Of a stretch of DNA of 64,000 nt, positions 12,872-22,372 are shown piece by piece. The DNA lies in assembly GCF_041860085.1 (NCBI RefSeq), contig NZ_CP124747.1, positions 4,712,001 through 4,776,000 on the forward strand, given 5' to 3'. Position numbers and translations under genes: made by a program. The stretch comes from Schlesneria sp. DSM 10557. Lineage in GTDB: Bacteria > Planctomycetota > Planctomycetia > Planctomycetales > Planctomycetaceae. The notes beneath the pieces are model-generated. The model saw only the letters and a program-made list of their open reading frames with translations. It ran no database searches and was not told the DNA's origin. How positions within the stretch are numbered: position 1 is the stretch's first letter; every line of letters starts with the position of its first letter.

Positions 12872-14197
12872 TCAGGGATGCGGACTCACGGGGACCTCAC
12901 CCGAGCGATCGTGCTTCAACAACCGCTCCAGTTGTTCGACCAGTCCCGGTTCGAGCACGTGTTCTATCAGATCAGCCTCGCGATCGACCCGGTTGGGAGC
13001 GATGTCTGCAAAATGGATCAGATAGAGTTCCCACAACCGATGATTCCGGACCGCACGGGCCGCAAGCCTGACGCCCGAATTGGTGAAGCGATATTGGTCG
13101 TCAGAACCGTGTCGCAGCCACCCTTCCTGAATGGCGGATTTCAGCAGTTCGTCTACCCGACCTGCGGACCAGCCACGCGCCGCAATCAGACTGTCGCGGG
13201 TGAGCGGCAGCGCTGTCAGATCCGGGCCATTCTGATTTGGATGAGTTGCCCCGGCCTCGCCAAGGGGGAACCTCCCTTCCAGTTCTTCAAAGCAGGCCCG
13301 AAGCAGGTCGAGTTGTCCCTTGCGCCGGCTGGCGGTTCGTTGACGCCAGAACTGCCAGTACGTGCCCCGCGCGGTTCCAAACAGCAGGCTGAGACCGAAG
13401 GCAAGTGAGCCGACCAGCACAATGATGGGGCCAGCGGCCAGTTGTTTAACGGACGCACTCAGCAGAACGCCGATCGAAGAGCTGATCCCCCCAATCGCCC
13501 CTGCGATCAGCACCATCGGCCCCAGTCGATTACTCCAGAACCGTGCTGCCGTGGGAGGAATGATCAGCAGTGCGACCACAAGCAATAGTCCAACACTCTG
13601 CATTCCAATCACCGTGACGCCGACCACCAGCCCTGTCAGCAGCAGGTCGAGTAATTTAACGGGCCATCCCAGTGCGGCGGCGTATTCTTCGTCAAAACTG
13701 AGGACCGCAAATTCCTTGAACAGGGCGAAACAGACGAGCAGCACAATGGCGCTGGCTGCGGCAATCAGGCTCACATCGATTGCGGTCATCGAGGCGGCTT
13801 TTCCGAAAATGAAGTCACTCAGGCCGGCGGCGCTTCCCGTCCTCATCCCCTGGATGATGGTGAGCAGGACGATTCCGGCACCGAAAAACAGACTGAGGAC
13901 GATCCCCAGCGCGGCGTCTTCTTTGATCAGACGAGTCTTCTGAATGAGGTTCGTCACCATCACCCCTGCGGTGGCGGAAAGTGACGCCCCGAACAAGAGC
14001 CACGGCAATGATTTGCCTGCTCCGGGGGAGAATGCTTCGACGACAAGGTACGAAATGCCGATTCCCGGCAGTGCAGCATGGCTGGCGACATCACCGACCA
14101 GCGCTTTCTTGCGCAGGAGCATAAACGCGCCGACGACACCGCTGCACATTCCCAGCAGAAATGTCCCCAGCAGGACGATTCGGGTGTTATACGACAT
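12872..14197 (-). CDS. Metal ABC transporter permease (ABC-3) fused to DtxR-like domain
   Basis: This 441-aa protein has residues 1-280 forming a multi-helix ABC-3 permease like ZnuB, MntB or SitC, with the family signature around LLRKKALVGDVASHAALPGIG (residues 27-47) and LLIIPPTAARF. Residues of about 293-430 resemble the DtxR/MntR family: a winged-helix-like part (RVDELLKSAIQEGWLRH), then NHRLWELYL with His386, and ADLIEHVLEPGLVEQLERLL with Asp409, Glu412 and His413 at positions of the MntR metal site. The usual ATPase and substrate-binding genes are not adjacent. A role in Mn, Zn or Fe uptake with cytosolic metal sensing is inferred. Confidence 0.88.
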   Translation of the reverse strand: MSYNTRIVLLGTFLLGMCSGVVGAFMLLRKKALVGDVASHAALPGIGISYLVVEAFSPGAGKSLPWLLFGASLSATAGVMVTNLIQKTRLIKEDAALGIVLSLFFGAGIVLLTIIQGMRTGSAAGLSDFIFGKAASMTAIDVSLIAAASAIVLLVCFALFKEFAVLSFDEEYAAALGWPVKLLDLLLTGLVVGVTVIGMQSVGLLLVVALLIIPPTAARFWSNRLGPMVLIAGAIGGISSSIGVLLSASVKQLAAGPIIVLVGSLAFGLSLLFGTARGTYWQFWRQRTASRRKGQLDLLRACFEELEGRFPLGEAGATHPNQNGPDLTALPLTRDSLIAARGWSAGRVDELLKSAIQEGWLRHGSDDQYRFTNSGVRLAARAVRNHRLWELYLIHFADIAPNRVDREADLIEHVLEPGLVEQLERLLKHDRSGEVPVSPHP

Positions 14198-14812
14198 TTT
14201 GAATGACTACTCTTAATCGCAGAAAACGATCGCAGGAAACGCGCTTATCCCGGTAGACTTTGCCCAGCTCGTTCCTGATACGAAGGCCGACTGAGTTGCG
14301 TCTGTTCGTCGTTCTATCAAACGCTGACCGCGACGAAAAACAGAAGTGCTCTCAAAGGCGTGAAGGGGACGTTATCCGGACCGAATTCTAGCCAAGTTGA
14401 AGCGAACTTGCTGATGGGGACAGGAAAAATTACTCCCCAGGGTTTTGCCGGATTCTCAATCAGAAGTCTATCGATGTGTGTCCCGGCGCGTGTCTCACCA
14501 GAATCGCTGCGTCCAAATCAGGGAACATTGCTGCGTGGGGGTCGTCGCACGAGTCGGTTACTTCGGGTGCCGTTTGCGCAACGTCGAAGGGCCTTTCGCA
14601 CCCCAACTCCGTTCCAATTCCCGCAGAAAAGGGAAGGATCCTGCCGCTGCGAAACCGTTCGCAGTGCTGACGAATCGTTCAATCGTTCATCGGGAACGAC
14701 AGGCTTGACTTCACCTTGAGCAAGCCGGATGATCAAATGAAGTGCAAACATCGTAAGTTGTGATGATGCCCATGATCATCCAGAGCGACGGAAATCGGAC
14801 AGGGAACTGACT
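14198..14812. other. Divergent intergenic region, metal permease / STAS operon
   Basis: About 615 bp without an assignable gene; the longest plus-strand frame (14360-14719) shows no family features. It should contain the promoters of both flanking units. Small inverted repeats include GCTTG/CAAGC near 14703-14725 and GATGAT/ATCATC near 14762-14780. I could not pick out a convincing promoter. Confidence 0.4.
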
Positions 14813-15169
14813 ATGTCAACGGGTCAAAGGCGAATTGATATCGAAGAAGTTGGTGATGTCACTGTCGCCAAGTTTGTGGATAAGAAGATTCTTGATGAAG
14901 CCAATATTCAGGCGATCGGAAACAACTTATTCGCCCTGATCGACGAAGACGGTCGCCGCAAGATCGTGCTGGACTTCAGCCTGGTCGAGTACCTGTCGAG
15001 TGCCGCGCTGGGAAAACTGATCACAATGGACAAGAAGGCCAAAGCCGCCAAGTCGAAACTCCGACTTTGCAGCATCCGGCCAGAGATCTACGAAGTCTTC
15101 GAGATCACTCGACTCAACAAAATCTTCGATATCAAAGCGACGCAAGAAGAAGCTCTCGAAGGTTTCTAA
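14813..15169 (+). CDS. STAS-domain anti-anti-sigma factor
   Basis: This 118-aa single STAS domain of the SpoIIAA/RsbV type has the phosphorylation-site region DFSLVEYLSSAALGKL, with the second serine of SSAAL at the usual phospho-acceptor position. It is the first gene of a tight operon: three bases separate its stop from the RsbW-like kinase. By family knowledge it would bind the kinase when unphosphorylated and release whatever the kinase holds. No sigma factor gene lies in the operon; the third gene is a degenerate AAA+ protein instead. Confidence 0.94.
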   Translation: MSTGQRRIDIEEVGDVTVAKFVDKKILDEANIQAIGNNLFALIDEDGRRKIVLDFSLVEYLSSAALGKLITMDKKAKAAKSKLRLCSIRPEIYEVFEITRLNKIFDIKATQEEALEGF

Positions 15170-15172
15170 GCT

Positions 15173-15589
15173 GTGATGCAAAATAGCGATCAGTTCGAGG
15201 TTGTGATCCAGAGCGATTACGAATCGGGGCAATCGATCGTCGAGCGCATCATGGAGGTTGTCAGCCAGACGGGATTCTCGACTCGGGATCAGTTCGGTAT
15301 CCGACTGGCCGTGGACGAAGCGGTGACTAATGCGATCAAGCATGGGAACCAGCTTAGCCCCGAAAAGAAAGTTCGGATCGATTTCCGAAAAAGCGATGCC
15401 GGGGTGCGCATCGAGATCGAGGACGAAGGGGACGGGTTTCGGCCCGAAGACGTTCCCGACTGTACCGCCGATGAAAATCTCGAGCGCCCCACTGGTCGCG
15501 GCCTGATGCTGATGCGGGAATTCATGACACGCATTGAATACAGCGAAAAAGGCAACAAGGTCGTGCTCGAGAAACTGCACGGTTCTTGA
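15173..15589 (+). CDS. RsbW/SpoIIAB-like anti-sigma factor serine kinase
   Basis: This 138-aa GHKL ATPase has an N box LAVDEAVTNAIKHGN, G1 box EIEDEGDGF and G2 box GRGLMLMREFM, all intact. It should bind ATP, phosphorylate the STAS partner encoded three bases upstream, and sequester a target protein. Nine bases separate its stop from the next gene. The classical target would be an SigB/SigF-type sigma factor, but none is present, so the degenerate AAA+ protein downstream is a candidate partner (inference). Confidence 0.94.
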   Translation: MMQNSDQFEVVIQSDYESGQSIVERIMEVVSQTGFSTRDQFGIRLAVDEAVTNAIKHGNQLSPEKKVRIDFRKSDAGVRIEIEDEGDGFRPEDVPDCTADENLERPTGRGLMLMREFMTRIEYSEKGNKVVLEKLHGS

Positions 15590-15598
15590 CGAATTACC

Positions 15599-17074
15599 AT
15601 GGCCAGACGTGTTCGCACCACTCGCCGCCTGGAAGTGTGGCTCAAAGACACCTCGGTGGCGTTGTTCGTGCTGAATGCACACCGGCGATTAGTCTTCTTC
15701 AATGCGGGCTGCGAGCGTCTGACGGGGTGGGTCCCCTCCGCCGTACTGGGGCAGGTTTGCGAGTTCGTCTCGGAAGCTGACCCGCACTCAGCGGCTGCTC
15801 TTCTGGCATCGCTGGCCCCCCCTGCCAATGTCTGGCGAGGCGACACGGTGACCGTGCCCGCCGTCGTGGCACATCGTGAACTCGATCCCGTCACCAGCCA
15901 GATCCATTTCTTTCCTCTGACAGATACCGATAACAGGGTTCAGGCCGCGCTGGGGATTATCCAGTCTGCAGCAACCCCTTCTGCAGCGAGTTCGGTTTCC
16001 ACGACGCAGCGCTTGCACGTGGAATTGGCCCTACTGAGAAATTCGTTGCGAAAGAACGTCGGGGTGGGGGCACTGATCGGTCAATGTGCGGGGATGCGAC
16101 GCGTCTTCGATCAACTGCAATTGGCACAGCGTTCCTCCTTGCCGTTGCTGTTTGTCGGTGAGACAGGAACGGGTCGCGAACATATGGCTCGCGTCATTCA
16201 TGCGGCGGGAGAGCGAAGTGACGACCTGTTCGTACCCCTGGACTGCCGAAGGATGCCTGCTGAACTCCTGGAGTCGACTTTTAAGCGGATTCTCGATTCG
16301 CATGCCGGCGCAGGATTTCTGCCGGGGACCCTTTATCTCAACCAGATCGACACGCTGTCCCGCGATCTGCAGTACAGCGTCTTGAGGCTGATCCAGTCTG
16401 AGAATCCCTCCGCACCACGAGTCATGGCAGCCGCGTCCAAGCCACTCGAACCACTCATCGAATCCGAGCATTATCTCGAAGAGTTTGTGTATGCTCTGAC
16501 ACCGATGGTCATCACGGTTCCACCCTTGCGCAGTCGTGAGAACGATATGGAGTTGCTGGCGCAATACTTCCTGGAGGAATGCAATCGGAACGAACCCCAG
16601 CAGGTGACGGAGATCGACGAAGAGGTCTGGGAGAGGTTTCGGCGATACAACTGGCCGGGGAATGTGGGCGAACTTCGCACCGTTGTCTGGGAGGCACGCA
16701 AGACATGCGCTGGCTTCAAGATCGAATCGGCTGACTTGCCATTTCGATTTCGGGCCGGAGTCAGCGGGCAGGCGATCGGTCCGCGGCAGCCGACTCGTGT
16801 CGAGCCGTTAGACCCTCTGTTGATGAGGGTCGAGCGTGAGCAAATTGAATTGGCGTTGAAGACGGCCCGCGACAATAAGGCGAAAGCAGCAGAGCTTCTG
16901 GGGATCACTCGCCCCCGACTCTATCGTCGAATGGAAGTATTAGGAATCGTCGATGCGGATTCCGCAGCTTCCGATAACACGACGTCTGTCGGCACCAGCG
17001 AGATCCCCACCGCGGCAATCCCGGAAACCTTCGAAGACACGGGGCCTGTTGAACCCCTCGAGAACGGTCCCTGA
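15599..17074 (+). CDS. PAS - degenerate sigma-54-activator AAA+ - Fis HTH protein
   Basis: This 491-aa protein has a PAS domain (about 12-125), an AAA+ domain of the sigma-54 activator type (about 155-385) and a Fis-type helix-turn-helix (about 419-450). The AAA+ part has lost nearly everything needed for activity. Walker A has Arg193 where lysine is required (GETGTGRE). Walker B reads LYLNQID, so the acidic pair is Asn248-Gln249. The GAFTGA loop and about a dozen flanking residues are absent. Both arginines of the FRxDLxYR motif are gone (YLEEFVYAL). The NWPGNVGELR motif is kept. It probably binds DNA and senses through PAS but cannot remodel sigma-54. It is the third gene of the STAS/RsbW operon. 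Confidence 0.9.
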   Translation: MARRVRTTRRLEVWLKDTSVALFVLNAHRRLVFFNAGCERLTGWVPSAVLGQVCEFVSEADPHSAAALLASLAPPANVWRGDTVTVPAVVAHRELDPVTSQIHFFPLTDTDNRVQAALGIIQSAATPSAASSVSTTQRLHVELALLRNSLRKNVGVGALIGQCAGMRRVFDQLQLAQRSSLPLLFVGETGTGREHMARVIHAAGERSDDLFVPLDCRRMPAELLESTFKRILDSHAGAGFLPGTLYLNQIDTLSRDLQYSVLRLIQSENPSAPRVMAAASKPLEPLIESEHYLEEFVYALTPMVITVPPLRSRENDMELLAQYFLEECNRNEPQQVTEIDEEVWERFRRYNWPGNVGELRTVVWEARKTCAGFKIESADLPFRFRAGVSGQAIGPRQPTRVEPLDPLLMRVEREQIELALKTARDNKAKAAELLGITRPRLYRRMEVLGIVDADSAASDNTTSVGTSEIPTAAIPETFEDTGPVEPLENGP

Positions 17075-18318: not shown

Positions 18319-18701
18319 GGGCTGAATTCGTCATTCTGGAGAGTCGTTGATACCACAGCAAAGATCGAACGGTTCTCAGAAATTGCAAATCTGGTCAAGA
18401 GGAATGTTCCGCCGTCGAGGCCCGAGGGGGCCGCGGGGTGTGTCAGCTGTATTAGGGTTTGCAGTTTAGATCCCCGCCTGCGCTGGGATTTTCACAATCA
18501 ATTTCCGGATGATCGTCTGCTGTGCACATCGTTGGGTTTTCGCTCAACGTCTCACTGGCCGAATTCCCATAGGAATTCGAATGTCATGTCGGAAACGAAA
18601 ACGCGGTGCCCGGCGCTGAATTTGCTTTCTGCTGATTCGGAGCCTGGGAGGCCCTGAACCCGTCCACGGATGTTTCATTGACCTCCACTCCTGGACACAT
18701 C
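18319..18701. other. Divergent intergenic region, lpxB / ku
   Basis: About 380 bp with no assignable gene. A perfect inverted repeat GAATTCC-cata-GGAATTC lies at 18561-18578, about 125 bp upstream of the chosen ku start, and could be an operator. No clear -35/-10 pair was identified. Confidence 0.4.
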
Positions 18702-19580
18702 ATGTCGTTTCGATCCAGCTGGAAGGGCTATCTCAAGCTCAGTCTCGTTTCTGTCCCGGTCAAAGCGTACTCGGCGGTCAGTTCTGATGAAGGTGAGATT
18801 CATTTCAATCAGCTCCATGAAAAATGCCATAGCCGCATCAAGTACGTGAAAACCTGCCCCAAGCACGGGGCAGTCCCATCAGAAGAGATTGTCTCGGGTT
18901 ACGAATACGCCAAGGGGCAGTACGTCGTAATGGACAGCAGCGAACTTGCTGCCTTGCGGGCTGATAAAGAAAAATCCGTCAACGTGGAAGCGATCGTTCC
19001 GGTCGGGGCAATCGATCCGATGTACCTGACCGAGAAATCGTCCTACCTGATTCCAGATGGACGCGTCGGGGAAAAACCTTACGCGGTGATCGAACAGTGC
19101 CTTGCCAGTCAGAATTCAATCGCCGTGGGGCGGCTGGTCATCAATGGCAAGGACGAAGTAGTCATGATCCGCCCGCTGGATGGGTTACTGGTCCTGACCG
19201 TCCTCAGCGGGGCGGCGCAAGTGAAACAACCGGGACTCTTCGCGTCCGAACTTCCCAAGGTCAGCGTCTCTGCTGCCGAAGTCAAAATGACGAAGACGTT
19301 GTTCGAGGCCTATTATCAGGAGGAGATCGATCTGGCTCAGTTTACGGACCAGTATACCGAGCGGGTAGCCCAGTTAGTGGAGTCGAAGATCAAGGGGGAC
19401 GACATCGTCACGTCTGTTCCCAGTGAAGAACCGGATGTGATCAACCTGATGGACGCCCTGAAGAAGAGCGTGGAGCAGGCGAAATCCCATTCCAGAAAAA
19501 CCAAGGTGATGGCGGAAAAGACCCCCGCCAAGACGACTCGGCTGAAAACCCCGGCGAAGCGGAAGTCGAAGTCTGCGTGA
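18702..19580 (+). CDS. ku: Non-homologous end-joining protein Ku
   Basis: This is a 292-aa bacterial Ku. I chose the ATG at 18702 because the family begins there (SFRSSWKGYLKLSLVSVPVKAY); a TTG at 18678 would add eight residues. The Ku core beta-barrel sequence continues to about residue 255, followed by a lysine/alanine/proline-rich tail (AEKTPAKTTRLKTPAKRKSK), as in other bacterial Ku proteins, where tails assist DNA and LigD binding. It forms a ring on DNA double-strand ends and recruits LigD, which is encoded convergently just downstream and shares a terminator region with it. Confidence 0.96.
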   Translation: MSFRSSWKGYLKLSLVSVPVKAYSAVSSDEGEIHFNQLHEKCHSRIKYVKTCPKHGAVPSEEIVSGYEYAKGQYVVMDSSELAALRADKEKSVNVEAIVPVGAIDPMYLTEKSSYLIPDGRVGEKPYAVIEQCLASQNSIAVGRLVINGKDEVVMIRPLDGLLVLTVLSGAAQVKQPGLFASELPKVSVSAAEVKMTKTLFEAYYQEEIDLAQFTDQYTERVAQLVESKIKGDDIVTSVPSEEPDVINLMDALKKSVEQAKSHSRKTKVMAEKTPAKTTRLKTPAKRKSKSA

Positions 19581-19592
19581 TCCCCTTGAGCC

Positions 19593-19619
19593 TGCGGCTG
19601 TCTGGTACCGACAGCCGCA
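19593..19619. terminator. Terminator hairpin between ku and ligD
   Basis: TGCGGCTGTC and GACAGCCGCA form a perfect 10-bp stem with a 7-base loop (TGGTACC), placed between the convergent stops of ku and ligD. The U tract is weak on both sides, so it may act bidirectionally with limited strength. Confidence 0.7.
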
Positions 19620-19681
19620 ACTTGCTTTGCCTTGGGCAAGGAATGGGGACGGCCCCTCGTCCTGCACCACCCTTCACCCCT

Positions 19682-22372
19682 TTAGTTCCGCAGCACCTTA
19701 TCCAGTTTCTTGCTCGGGGCAGAGAGGGATTGGCGGACTTTGGATATTTCCCGCCAGGGGTCTCGTTTCAGTGTCGCCAGCCGCTGCAGGGCTGTCTCGA
19801 TTGTGAAGTAGTCCGAAGTGATCTTCGTGGAAACTTCCTCCCACTCCAGTGGCATCGAAACGAAGGCATTCGCTTTGGCCCTGGTCGAATAGGGGGCCAC
19901 GGCCGTTGCCCCGCGCGCGTTTCGCAAGTAGTCGATAAAGATTTTGTTCTTTCTCGCGGCCTTCGACATGTTCGACGTGAAGCGGGCAGGAGCCGCTGCG
20001 ACGATCGCGTCCGCCACGTGTTTGCAGAACTCCTTCGCGTCGTCCCACTCATGCCGACGCTCAATCGGAAGGACGATGTGCAGGCCCTTGCCTCCTGTTG
20101 TTTTAATGAAACTCGCTAACCCGAGTTCGTGCAGAAAGTCGTGGATTTGTCGCGCGGACTCAACGACTTTCGCCCAAGAGACATTCTCGTCAGGATCCAG
20201 ATCAAAAATCAGACGATCAGGGCGTTCGAGGTGATCCTCGGTACTGCCCCAGGTGTGAATCTCGAGGCTTCCCATCTGGACGAGTGACAGTAGGCCCTCA
20301 ACATCGTCGACCACCACGTAATTCTTTGTCGCGGTACTTTCCTTGATTGGGATTTGTCGCAGATTCTCTGGAGCGCCGGGTTGGGGATGCTTCTGGTAGA
20401 AGCACTGTTTGCCAGCCCCGTCGGGGCAGCGCACCACCACGATGGGGCGGTGTACCACGTGGGGCAGGATCCATTCTGCGACTTCCTGGTAATAACGAGC
20501 GATGTCCAGTTTGGTGAGTTCAGCTTCCGGGTAGACGATCTTTTCAGGATGTGTGAAACGGACTCCCGCAAACATTTCTGACTGCGGATCGTAATCGGAG
20601 TTACCTTCTGCGGGTGCACCCTTGCTGTTCTGAGCCCGTTTGCTGCGGGACGTTTTCTGGGTCGCTGCCGCCGGTCGTGCCGGTTCCTTCTTGGGAGAGG
20701 CTTTTCTGGGGACGGGATTGGTCAGCACTTCCTCAAGTTTGGCAGGGACTTCCTGGCCGACGTCGCGTGGTGGCTTATCCTCTCGCAGGCCCTGGAAGGA
20801 GGCGTGTCGCAATCGCATGTCGCGAGTTTTGTCAGCGAACTTGATCTGTCCGACCAGCTTCGGCTGGATCCAGTGAGCCGTCCTCGCATCGCCGACTTTC
20901 CGCTGCAGATCAACGAACGGGGAATCTGACACTTCCAGTTCCTTCATGTTTGCATGAAGTTCCTTCAGCAGTTTTGCATCGAAGCCGGTGCCCACCTTAC
21001 CGGCGTAGTGCAGTTTTTGTTCGTCGTCATAAAATCCAACCAGCAGGGCGCCAAATCCGGTTCGCGATCCGGATGGGTCCGTGAAGCCACCAATCACAAA
21101 CTCTTCGTGTTTCAGGCACTTCACCTTAAGCCAGTCGGTGCCACGTCCCGGACGGTACGGCTGATCCAGTCGTTTGCAGATGATCCCTTCCAGATGGAGT
21201 TTGCATGCTTGTTTGAGGAAGACATCCCCCCTCCCCATGATGGGCTCTGAGTATTGGATGGATCGATGGTTGGATGTGGACTCCAGCAACGTCTGGAGTG
21301 CCTGTTTCCGTTCTTGCAGCGGCTGCTCGCGCAGGTCTTTTCCATCCAGATACAGCAGGTCGAAGACGTAGTATCGCAACTGTTCGGTACCCCGATCGCG
21401 GAAGGCGTTCTGCAGCGATTGGAAATCGGTCGTCCCGTCGCTACTCATGGCGACGACCTCGCCGTCGAGAATCGCCTGATCGCACTTCAGGTGAGCGGCC
21501 TGCCTGGCCAGTTCGGGAAGGCGCGCCGTCCAGTCTTTGTGGTTGCGTGTGACGAAGCGACTGGTTCCATCATCGATGTGGCAGATGATTCGATAGCCAT
21601 CAAATTTGATTTCGTGGCACCATTCATCCCCTTCTGGCGCCTCGTCAACCAGGGTGGCCAGTTGAACGCTGATTTTGTCAGGCTCGGGGATTGATGAAGC
21701 TTGAGTTCGCTTTGATTTGCTCGGCTTGGAGGAACTGCTTGAGCGAGTTCGTGATTTGGGGATGTCGGCCGTCTTTGTCGTTTGTTTTTTCTTTCCGGCG
21801 TCGGCGTCAGCGGCGATGGTGTCCAGATCGCGTTTTGACGAAACGCTGAGAGGTTGTTCCTCCAGGATATCCCCGTCGTCCATGGAGCGTGCCTGAGCAT
21901 CCCGTTCTTTGATGAGGAGCCATTGGGGCTTTTGAGACGAGCTGCCCTTGCGGCGAGTGCGGACGAGAGTCCAGCCCCCCTTCAGCTTCTTGCCTTTGAG
22001 ATTGAACTTCAGCTTTCCTTCCCGCAGTCCAGATTCCGGGTCCCCGATCGGTTCCCAGCTTCCCGTATCCCACAAGAGGACGGTACCTCCTCCATACTCC
22101 CCCTCGGGGATCGTTCCCTCAAACGTGCCATAGTCGACGGGATGATCTTCGACCTCAATGGCGAGGCGCTTCACTTTTGTATCGAGAGAGGGTCCTTTCG
22201 GGACTGCCCAGCTCTTCAGGACTCCATCCAGTTCCAGACGGAAGTCATAGTGCAGGTGCGATGCGTCGTGCTTCTGAACGACGTACGACCAGCCTTTTCT
22301 CGCCTTGGTTTGGGCCGGGGGTTCCGGCGTTTTGTCGAATCGACGCTTGCGCTGGTAGTCGGTGAGTCCCAT
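19682..22372 (-). CDS. ligD: Multifunctional DNA ligase D (PE-LIG-POL)
   Basis: This 896-aa three-domain enzyme has the order phosphoesterase, ligase, polymerase. The PE domain (about 1-170) keeps His35, His41, Asp43, Arg45 and His77, spaced as in the Pseudomonas enzyme. The ATP-dependent ligase (about 235-540) has the nucleotidyl lysine Lys256 in EIKFDGYR. Two basic, low-complexity linkers (about 180-230 and 560-595) separate the domains. The primase-polymerase domain (about 600-896) contains LIFDLDPDE. With Ku it should carry out end processing, gap filling and sealing of double-strand breaks. A LigD of all three domains next to ku suggests a complete two-gene NHEJ system. Confidence 0.96.
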   Translation of the reverse strand: MGLTDYQRKRRFDKTPEPPAQTKARKGWSYVVQKHDASHLHYDFRLELDGVLKSWAVPKGPSLDTKVKRLAIEVEDHPVDYGTFEGTIPEGEYGGGTVLLWDTGSWEPIGDPESGLREGKLKFNLKGKKLKGGWTLVRTRRKGSSSQKPQWLLIKERDAQARSMDDGDILEEQPLSVSSKRDLDTIAADADAGKKKQTTKTADIPKSRTRSSSSSKPSKSKRTQASSIPEPDKISVQLATLVDEAPEGDEWCHEIKFDGYRIICHIDDGTSRFVTRNHKDWTARLPELARQAAHLKCDQAILDGEVVAMSSDGTTDFQSLQNAFRDRGTEQLRYYVFDLLYLDGKDLREQPLQERKQALQTLLESTSNHRSIQYSEPIMGRGDVFLKQACKLHLEGIICKRLDQPYRPGRGTDWLKVKCLKHEEFVIGGFTDPSGSRTGFGALLVGFYDDEQKLHYAGKVGTGFDAKLLKELHANMKELEVSDSPFVDLQRKVGDARTAHWIQPKLVGQIKFADKTRDMRLRHASFQGLREDKPPRDVGQEVPAKLEEVLTNPVPRKASPKKEPARPAAATQKTSRSKRAQNSKGAPAEGNSDYDPQSEMFAGVRFTHPEKIVYPEAELTKLDIARYYQEVAEWILPHVVHRPIVVVRCPDGAGKQCFYQKHPQPGAPENLRQIPIKESTATKNYVVVDDVEGLLSLVQMGSLEIHTWGSTEDHLERPDRLIFDLDPDENVSWAKVVESARQIHDFLHELGLASFIKTTGGKGLHIVLPIERRHEWDDAKEFCKHVADAIVAAAPARFTSNMSKAARKNKIFIDYLRNARGATAVAPYSTRAKANAFVSMPLEWEEVSTKITSDYFTIETALQRLATLKRDPWREISKVRQSLSAPSKKLDKVLRN

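Follow-up and report, generated by a model that had tools for sequence, protein, structure and literature searches.

Several bEBP homologues without the GAFTGA loop are described as acting at sigma-70 promoters (PMC10274813, PMC3162934), and control of such promoters is reported to proceed independently of ATP hydrolysis for some of them (PMC10274813). In VpsR, TyrR, DhaR, HupR and the NtrC proteins of Caulobacter and Rhodobacter capsulatus, the fold is that of a sigma-54 activator but GAFTGA is deleted or altered (PMC10274813, PMC3162934), a combination also seen in the third protein of the operon described below; ATP binding is reported to be required by R. capsulatus NtrC, and the Walker A and Walker B residues by Caulobacter NtrC (PMC10274813). 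A regulatory locus of Vibrio fischeri, that of SypA/SypE with the regulator SypG, resembles the operon in that it also encodes a serine kinase and a STAS protein. SypG is a bEBP; to our knowledge, no degenerate activator is known in the Syp locus, and its lineage is unrelated to that of the DNA studied here.

In the window, by which we mean the whole 64,000-nucleotide stretch of DNA analysed, genes for a STAS protein, an RsbW-like kinase and a PAS-AAA+-Fis protein follow one another in tandem on the plus strand (Table 1). The gaps of 3 and 9 bases given in the initial annotation agree with the ORF coordinates, and the protein types named there agree with the Pfam assignments. The kinase ORF starts with GTG, and the next in-frame ATG is at 15176. 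The pattern TTGAC-19-ATGAT is present 5' of the STAS gene in all nine genomes with the three-gene operon, at a distance of 79-101 bases from the assigned STAS start in eight of them and of 246 in the remaining one (L007). The strict form of the pattern (spacing 18-19) has a frequency of 0.0002 among shuffled upstream stretches and yields 14 matches in the whole genome vs 1 for the reversed control; a relaxed form, which carries no shuffle control, precedes 15 of the 22 STAS genes examined from other genomes. As judged from the sequence, the three genes are probably co-transcribed from the conserved sigma-70-like promoter that belongs to the STAS/RsbW pair itself. Elsewhere in the window, inspection by eye indicates a 441-residue ORF (12872-14197, minus strand) that resembles a metal ABC permease extended at its C terminus by a winged-helix-like part, as well as convergent Ku-like and LigD-like ORFs of end-joining repair (18678-22372).

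Table 1. Features of the three-gene locus, with positions counted from the first nucleotide of the window
Feature	Position	Strand	Basis and remarks
Sigma-70-like promoter (predicted), TTGACT-17 bp-GATGAT	14705..14733	+	pattern conserved upstream of STAS
STAS anti-sigma-factor-antagonist-like protein, 118 aa	14813..15169	+	ORF; Pfam STAS 2.7e-15
RsbW/SpoIIAB-like serine kinase, 138 aa	15173..15589	+	ORF; Pfam HATPase_c_2 1.5e-26; catalytic motifs intact
PAS / degenerate sigma-54-activator-type AAA+ / lid / Fis HTH protein, 491 aa	15599..17074	+	ORF; Pfam; motif alignment; AF2 model
PAS domain, residues 15-123	15641..15967	+	Pfam PAS_4 2e-5; AF2 model
AAA+ alpha/beta domain, residues 159-310	16073..16528	+	without Walker B acids, GAFTGA loop and Arg fingers; bEBP-like fold
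Fis-type HTH region, residues 404-450	16808..16948	+	HTH_8 4.3e-9; conserved recognition-helix residues

The third protein matches Sigma54_activ_2 (4.2e-23) and Sigma54_activat (1.3e-17) along with AAA_lid_14, HTH_8 and PAS_4, and its Sigma54_activat score is 64 bits vs 229 bits for the intact activator of the window. The AF2 model built from 31 sequences (pLDDT 85.6) has bEBP AAA+ domains as its top structural matches, with VpsR among the matches, and, at the level of a predicted structure, shows that a bEBP-like AAA+ fold is kept; the PAS region of the model consists of mixed strands and helices with pLDDT mostly above 90. With respect to bEBP membership, the sigma-54-activator AAA+ fold and the Fis HTH are present according to Pfam, the model and the structure matches, and the GAFTGA loop 1, the Walker B Asp-Glu and the Walker A Lys are all absent. 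The individual losses listed in the initial annotation stand: the Walker B pair is replaced by Asn248-Gln249, the GAFTGA loop is deleted in the alignment, and Leu293 and Ala299 occupy the places of the two arginines of FRxDLxYR. The PAS domain, the NWPGN motif and the Fis HTH were rightly said to be kept, as indicated by the PAS_4 and HTH_8 matches and by the reading of NWPGN. A loss beyond those in the initial annotation concerns sensor II: its position after NWPGN is Gly357, compared to Arg in 18/18 paralogues from the same genome. The claim that the Walker A Lys is lost holds insofar as Arg193 is read at this position, and has to be softened as regards Walker A as a whole, of which the P-loop glycines remain. 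The further statement that every known activity of the class is lost was too strong, given these glycines and a Lys at the same position in 40 of 66 family members; because the glycines are kept and the Walker A residue is Lys or Arg in all but one of the family members, the protein may still bind nucleotide.

The paralogue set of 18 sequences includes three without a GAFTGA match (L108, L109, L111) and one with a loop outside the pattern (L096); L100, L105 (the window's own intact activator) and L110 were dropped. Of the three without a GAFTGA match, L111 (G000:C1:4827969-4828469) also deviates at Walker B, which reads Asp-Gln, and at Walker A, which the simple pattern does not detect.

Regulator matches at E<=1e-45 were detected in 128 of the 150 sampled family genomes. 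For motif reading, we used the best match per genome, window included, which gave 66 sequences from six of the seven sampled families (f1-f5, f7): 48 from the 59 genomes first searched, mostly matches reaching the PAS region, and 18 from the 150-genome search. Three rows were left out: L023 for its split frame, L026 as a partial sequence, and L202 because its genome is that of L032. Nine of the 59 genomes lie outside this set (G021, G027, G035, G039, G041, G049, G051, G054, G055); in the first five of these, the top match among those listed extends over the AAA+ and HTH part, so that it could represent an ordinary activator, and in G049 the match is near full-length. The initial annotation had called for an AAA+ alignment and a tree to see whether the losses recur, and had named relatives with intact Walker/GAFTGA motifs as refuting evidence. 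The losses recur, and intact relatives are absent among the 66 sequences read: the Walker B Asp-Glu and a GAFTGA-like loop are each found in 0/66, counts that owe something to the sampling, since a degenerate query was used to find these relatives as best matches and most were picked for PAS reach. The Walker B site holds 40 different residue pairs, including one Glu-Glu and one Asp-Asp, and neither residue is acidic in 31 of the 66; an alignment-free scan of the 65 sequences with a P-loop found no hydrophobic-Asp-Glu string. Loop 1 is shorter than 32 residues in 61/66 and exactly 32 residues long in 17/18 paralogues. The sensor-II Arg persists in 21/66 and the two finger arginines in 12/66 and 8/66, and the P-loop GxxGxG[KR] is present in 65/66, its last residue being Lys in 40, Arg in 25 and Gly in 1. 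Among the matches listed, the best named one comes from a Planctomycetaceae MAG and extends over most of the query (37%), and most of the other named ones cover the AAA+ and HTH part only; no paper on this planctomycete family was found among the matches listed in the open-licence literature.

The conservation of the protein is strongly skewed towards its DNA-binding end. A recognition-helix signature (R438, [RK]440, R443, [RK]444) is found in 64/66 family members and in 0/18 paralogues, with the provisos that it was picked after viewing the alignment and that the paralogues presumably have other targets. For the latter reason, we also compared the family with a set consisting of the intact activator of the window and the best matches to it in the same genomes. 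Across seven shared genomes, the mean pairwise identity of the degenerate family is 0.38 in the AAA+ domain and 0.80 in the HTH core, compared to 0.84 and 0.79, respectively, for the intact set, a comparison in which five of the genomes belong to a single genus and the loop of the intact set is favoured by the requirement for an exact GAFTGA; the seven come from 13 chosen control loci, of which 5 have no exact-GAFTGA frame and one has no counterpart. The dN/dS ratio of the whole gene is 0.07-0.13 in the six pairs, out of seven, that give an estimate, and by part it is 0.09-0.30 for the AAA+ domain (seven pairs) and 0.02-0.05 for the HTH (five pairs), although many of the dS values are high and rough. 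By this measure, the regulator gene is under purifying selection, and its AAA+ part is still constrained, though not as a motor.

In a quick tree of 84 rows with SH-aLRT support, no bootstraps and an arbitrary root, the degenerate family forms a single clade apart from the 18 paralogues (SH-aLRT 100). The nine operon genomes also form one clade (SH-aLRT 99), with the six other genomes of the genus as its sister (100). The Walker A residue is Arg in all nine operon genomes and Lys in all six sister genomes; a tie between the Lys-to-Arg change and the operon was considered and rejected, as the tree requires at least 13 Lys/Arg changes overall.

The explanation that we favour, and consider reasonably probable, is that this planctomycete lineage derives from sigma-54 activators, no longer remodels sigma-54, has very probably ceased to hydrolyse ATP, and acts as a DNA-binding regulator at sigma-70-type promoters. 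The sequence features support a description of the third protein as DNA-binding rather than as an ATPase; we infer DNA binding, the loss of hydrolysis and the action at sigma-70 promoters alike. Under this scenario, the PAS domain would sense a signal, the AAA+ and lid domains would serve as a scaffold that could still bind nucleotide or phosphate via the P-loop, and the strongly conserved Fis HTH would recognise operators of a single conserved type in sigma-70-type promoters, the whole working without hydrolysis by analogy with some bEBPs that lack GAFTGA. Within the window's genus, a single rearrangement on the tree would have brought the regulator gene of one clade behind the STAS/RsbW pair. 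A search for a shared palindromic operator 5' of 59 regulator and 28 STAS genes was negative, half-sites of 4, 5 and 6 bases never beating the best of 12 shuffles, a result that counts against this explanation. The lid, with an identity of 0.39 in the family vs 0.35 among the paralogues, would also fit an oligomer role.

The upstream pair matches the SpoIIAA-SpoIIAB / RsbV-RsbW families below the equivalog cut-offs. Ser62 and Ser63 of the STAS protein are invariant in 31/31 aligned relatives, within a conserved YLSSAALG region that presumably holds the phospho-acceptor, and Glu49, Asn53, Asp84, Gly86 and Gly88 of the kinase, together with the GRG motif, are conserved in 30/30, so that the RsbV/RsbW-type features, namely the N and G boxes of the kinase and the STAS Ser, are present throughout. 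STAS and RsbW are conserved as a pair of their own, and their catalytic motifs are intact. STAS matches were obtained in 40/40 genomes searched (E<=3.6e-28) and, at E<=1e-30, in 139 of the 150 sampled family genomes. RsbW is matched in 40/40 genomes at E<=0.001, weakly (2e-16 to 8e-8) in G009 and four f2 genomes, which may lack a true RsbW orthologue; because the matches there are only weak, STAS may have another partner in these genomes (G009, G037, G042, G046, G050). A MutS-like gene, recognised by eye, lies near the pair in several families (L079, L083, L084, L087, L089).

The intact kinase and Ser motifs are what would be expected if RsbW and STAS formed a partner switch with a DNA-binding protein as its output, for example with RsbW holding the regulator until STAS frees it, and the 8 matches to SpoIIE-type phosphatases in the genome are compatible with such a switch. 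The three-gene order was found in 9/15 genomes of the window's genus, all in the one clade, and in 9/9 clade members the regulator follows on the same strand after a gap of 9-96 bases. A second neighbourhood was identified in G113, from another genus, where STAS and RsbW are followed 228 bases on by the regulator on the opposite strand (convergent); here the regulator seems to have moved, because one gene upstream of the pair is also found at the counterpart of the pair in G081 and the flanks of the regulator show no match. In G019, the pair and the regulator are on one contig, approximately 11.5 kb apart. By rough arithmetic, a random order in 58 genera would produce about 0.03 neighbourhoods within 2 kb, and the two pair-regulator neighbourhoods are suggestive against this figure without being proof of a link.

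The wider distribution of the genes nevertheless speaks against this reading. Both the regulator and STAS are present in 117 of the 150 genomes and are adjacent, by coordinates, in only 9 of these (8 of the window's genus and G113), although contig ends may hide others. The initial annotation had asked whether the gene order recurs, which it does within the genus. STAS is also present in every one of the 22 genomes that yield no regulator match (20 from the listing, with G170 and G173 deduced), among them the single-contig genomes G021, G027 and G105; a more diverged regulator might lie below the threshold there. Conversely, 11 genomes of the sample have the regulator and no STAS match. In single-contig genomes such as G015, G018, G032, G075, G083 and G130, the regulator and STAS are more than 0.8 Mb apart by coordinate. 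The nearest upstream gene of the regulator is a PfkB-type sugar kinase in 9/57 genomes that are outside the operon clade and have an upstream ORF (L010-L013, L020, L210, L213, L217, L218); these represent five genera, more than the STAS/RsbW neighbourhood spans, and include four sister genomes of the window's genus; the Pfam assignment comes from one of the nine. This neighbour hints at a role in carbohydrate metabolism. No sigma factor gene is present among the three genes by ORF reading and Pfam, and all four Sigma70_r3 matches in the genome are outside the operon (ECF sigma factors were outside the search). Two of these sit in frames of 560-573 residues; one other is RpoS-like, below the RpoS cut-off, and one is of the FliA/WhiG type, over its family cut-off, both being under the SigB/F/G cut-off. 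It is possible that RsbW acts on a target of the usual kind, a sigma factor such as the FliA/WhiG-type or the RpoS-like one. The role of the pair as the dedicated controller of the regulator, as originally suggested, was not borne out, and a partner switch with this output is possible, though rather unlikely. A composite scenario, in which a planctomycete-wide motor-less regulator with one conserved operator is gated in this clade by RsbW/STAS in place of a sigma factor, appears to us quite unlikely.

The retained AAA+ and lid folds of the model would also be consistent with an anti-activator that enters the rings of intact sigma-54 activators and thereby poisons them, and potential targets exist, given that Walker A, Walker B and a GAFTGA-like loop are all recognised by simple patterns in 16 of the 22 activator-type domains of the genome. 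However, the arginine-finger and loop-1 regions (mean pairwise identity within the family of 0.26 and 0.21, respectively) vary freely, unlike a kept ring interface, and the HTH is the most conserved part of the protein, making this alternative highly improbable. Local decay or an assembly error, which several motif losses in one protein might bring to mind, is effectively ruled out by retention in 128/150 family genomes, the loss of both Walker B Asp-Glu and GAFTGA in 66/66 and dN/dS well under 1.

The family provides a natural case of an AAA+ motor that seems to be dismantled while its DNA-binding end is under strong selection across many genera, and a system for asking what the activator fold does without hydrolysis; it is also a warning that such genes should not be annotated as sigma-54 regulators. 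Should the partner switch prove to act on the regulator, RsbW-type switches would gain an output other than a sigma factor. Compared to SpoIIAA-SpoIIAB and RsbV-RsbW, the window pair keeps the kinase and Ser motifs and differs in that its operon has no sigma gene. The third protein has the AAA+ fold and the AAA+-lid-HTH order of NtrC/PspF/ZraR-type activators, whereas the Walker B acids and the GAFTGA loop of these activators are both absent in its family. The features of GAFTGA-less bEBP homologues, namely the bEBP fold, the lack of GAFTGA and a conserved DNA-binding domain, are all present, although the sensor is a PAS domain instead of a receiver domain. Unlike the GAFTGA-less NtrC proteins, the family is also without Walker B (66/66) and has lost the arginine fingers and sensor II in most members; what sets it apart from the known cases considered here is the depth of this dismantling and its fixation across many genera.
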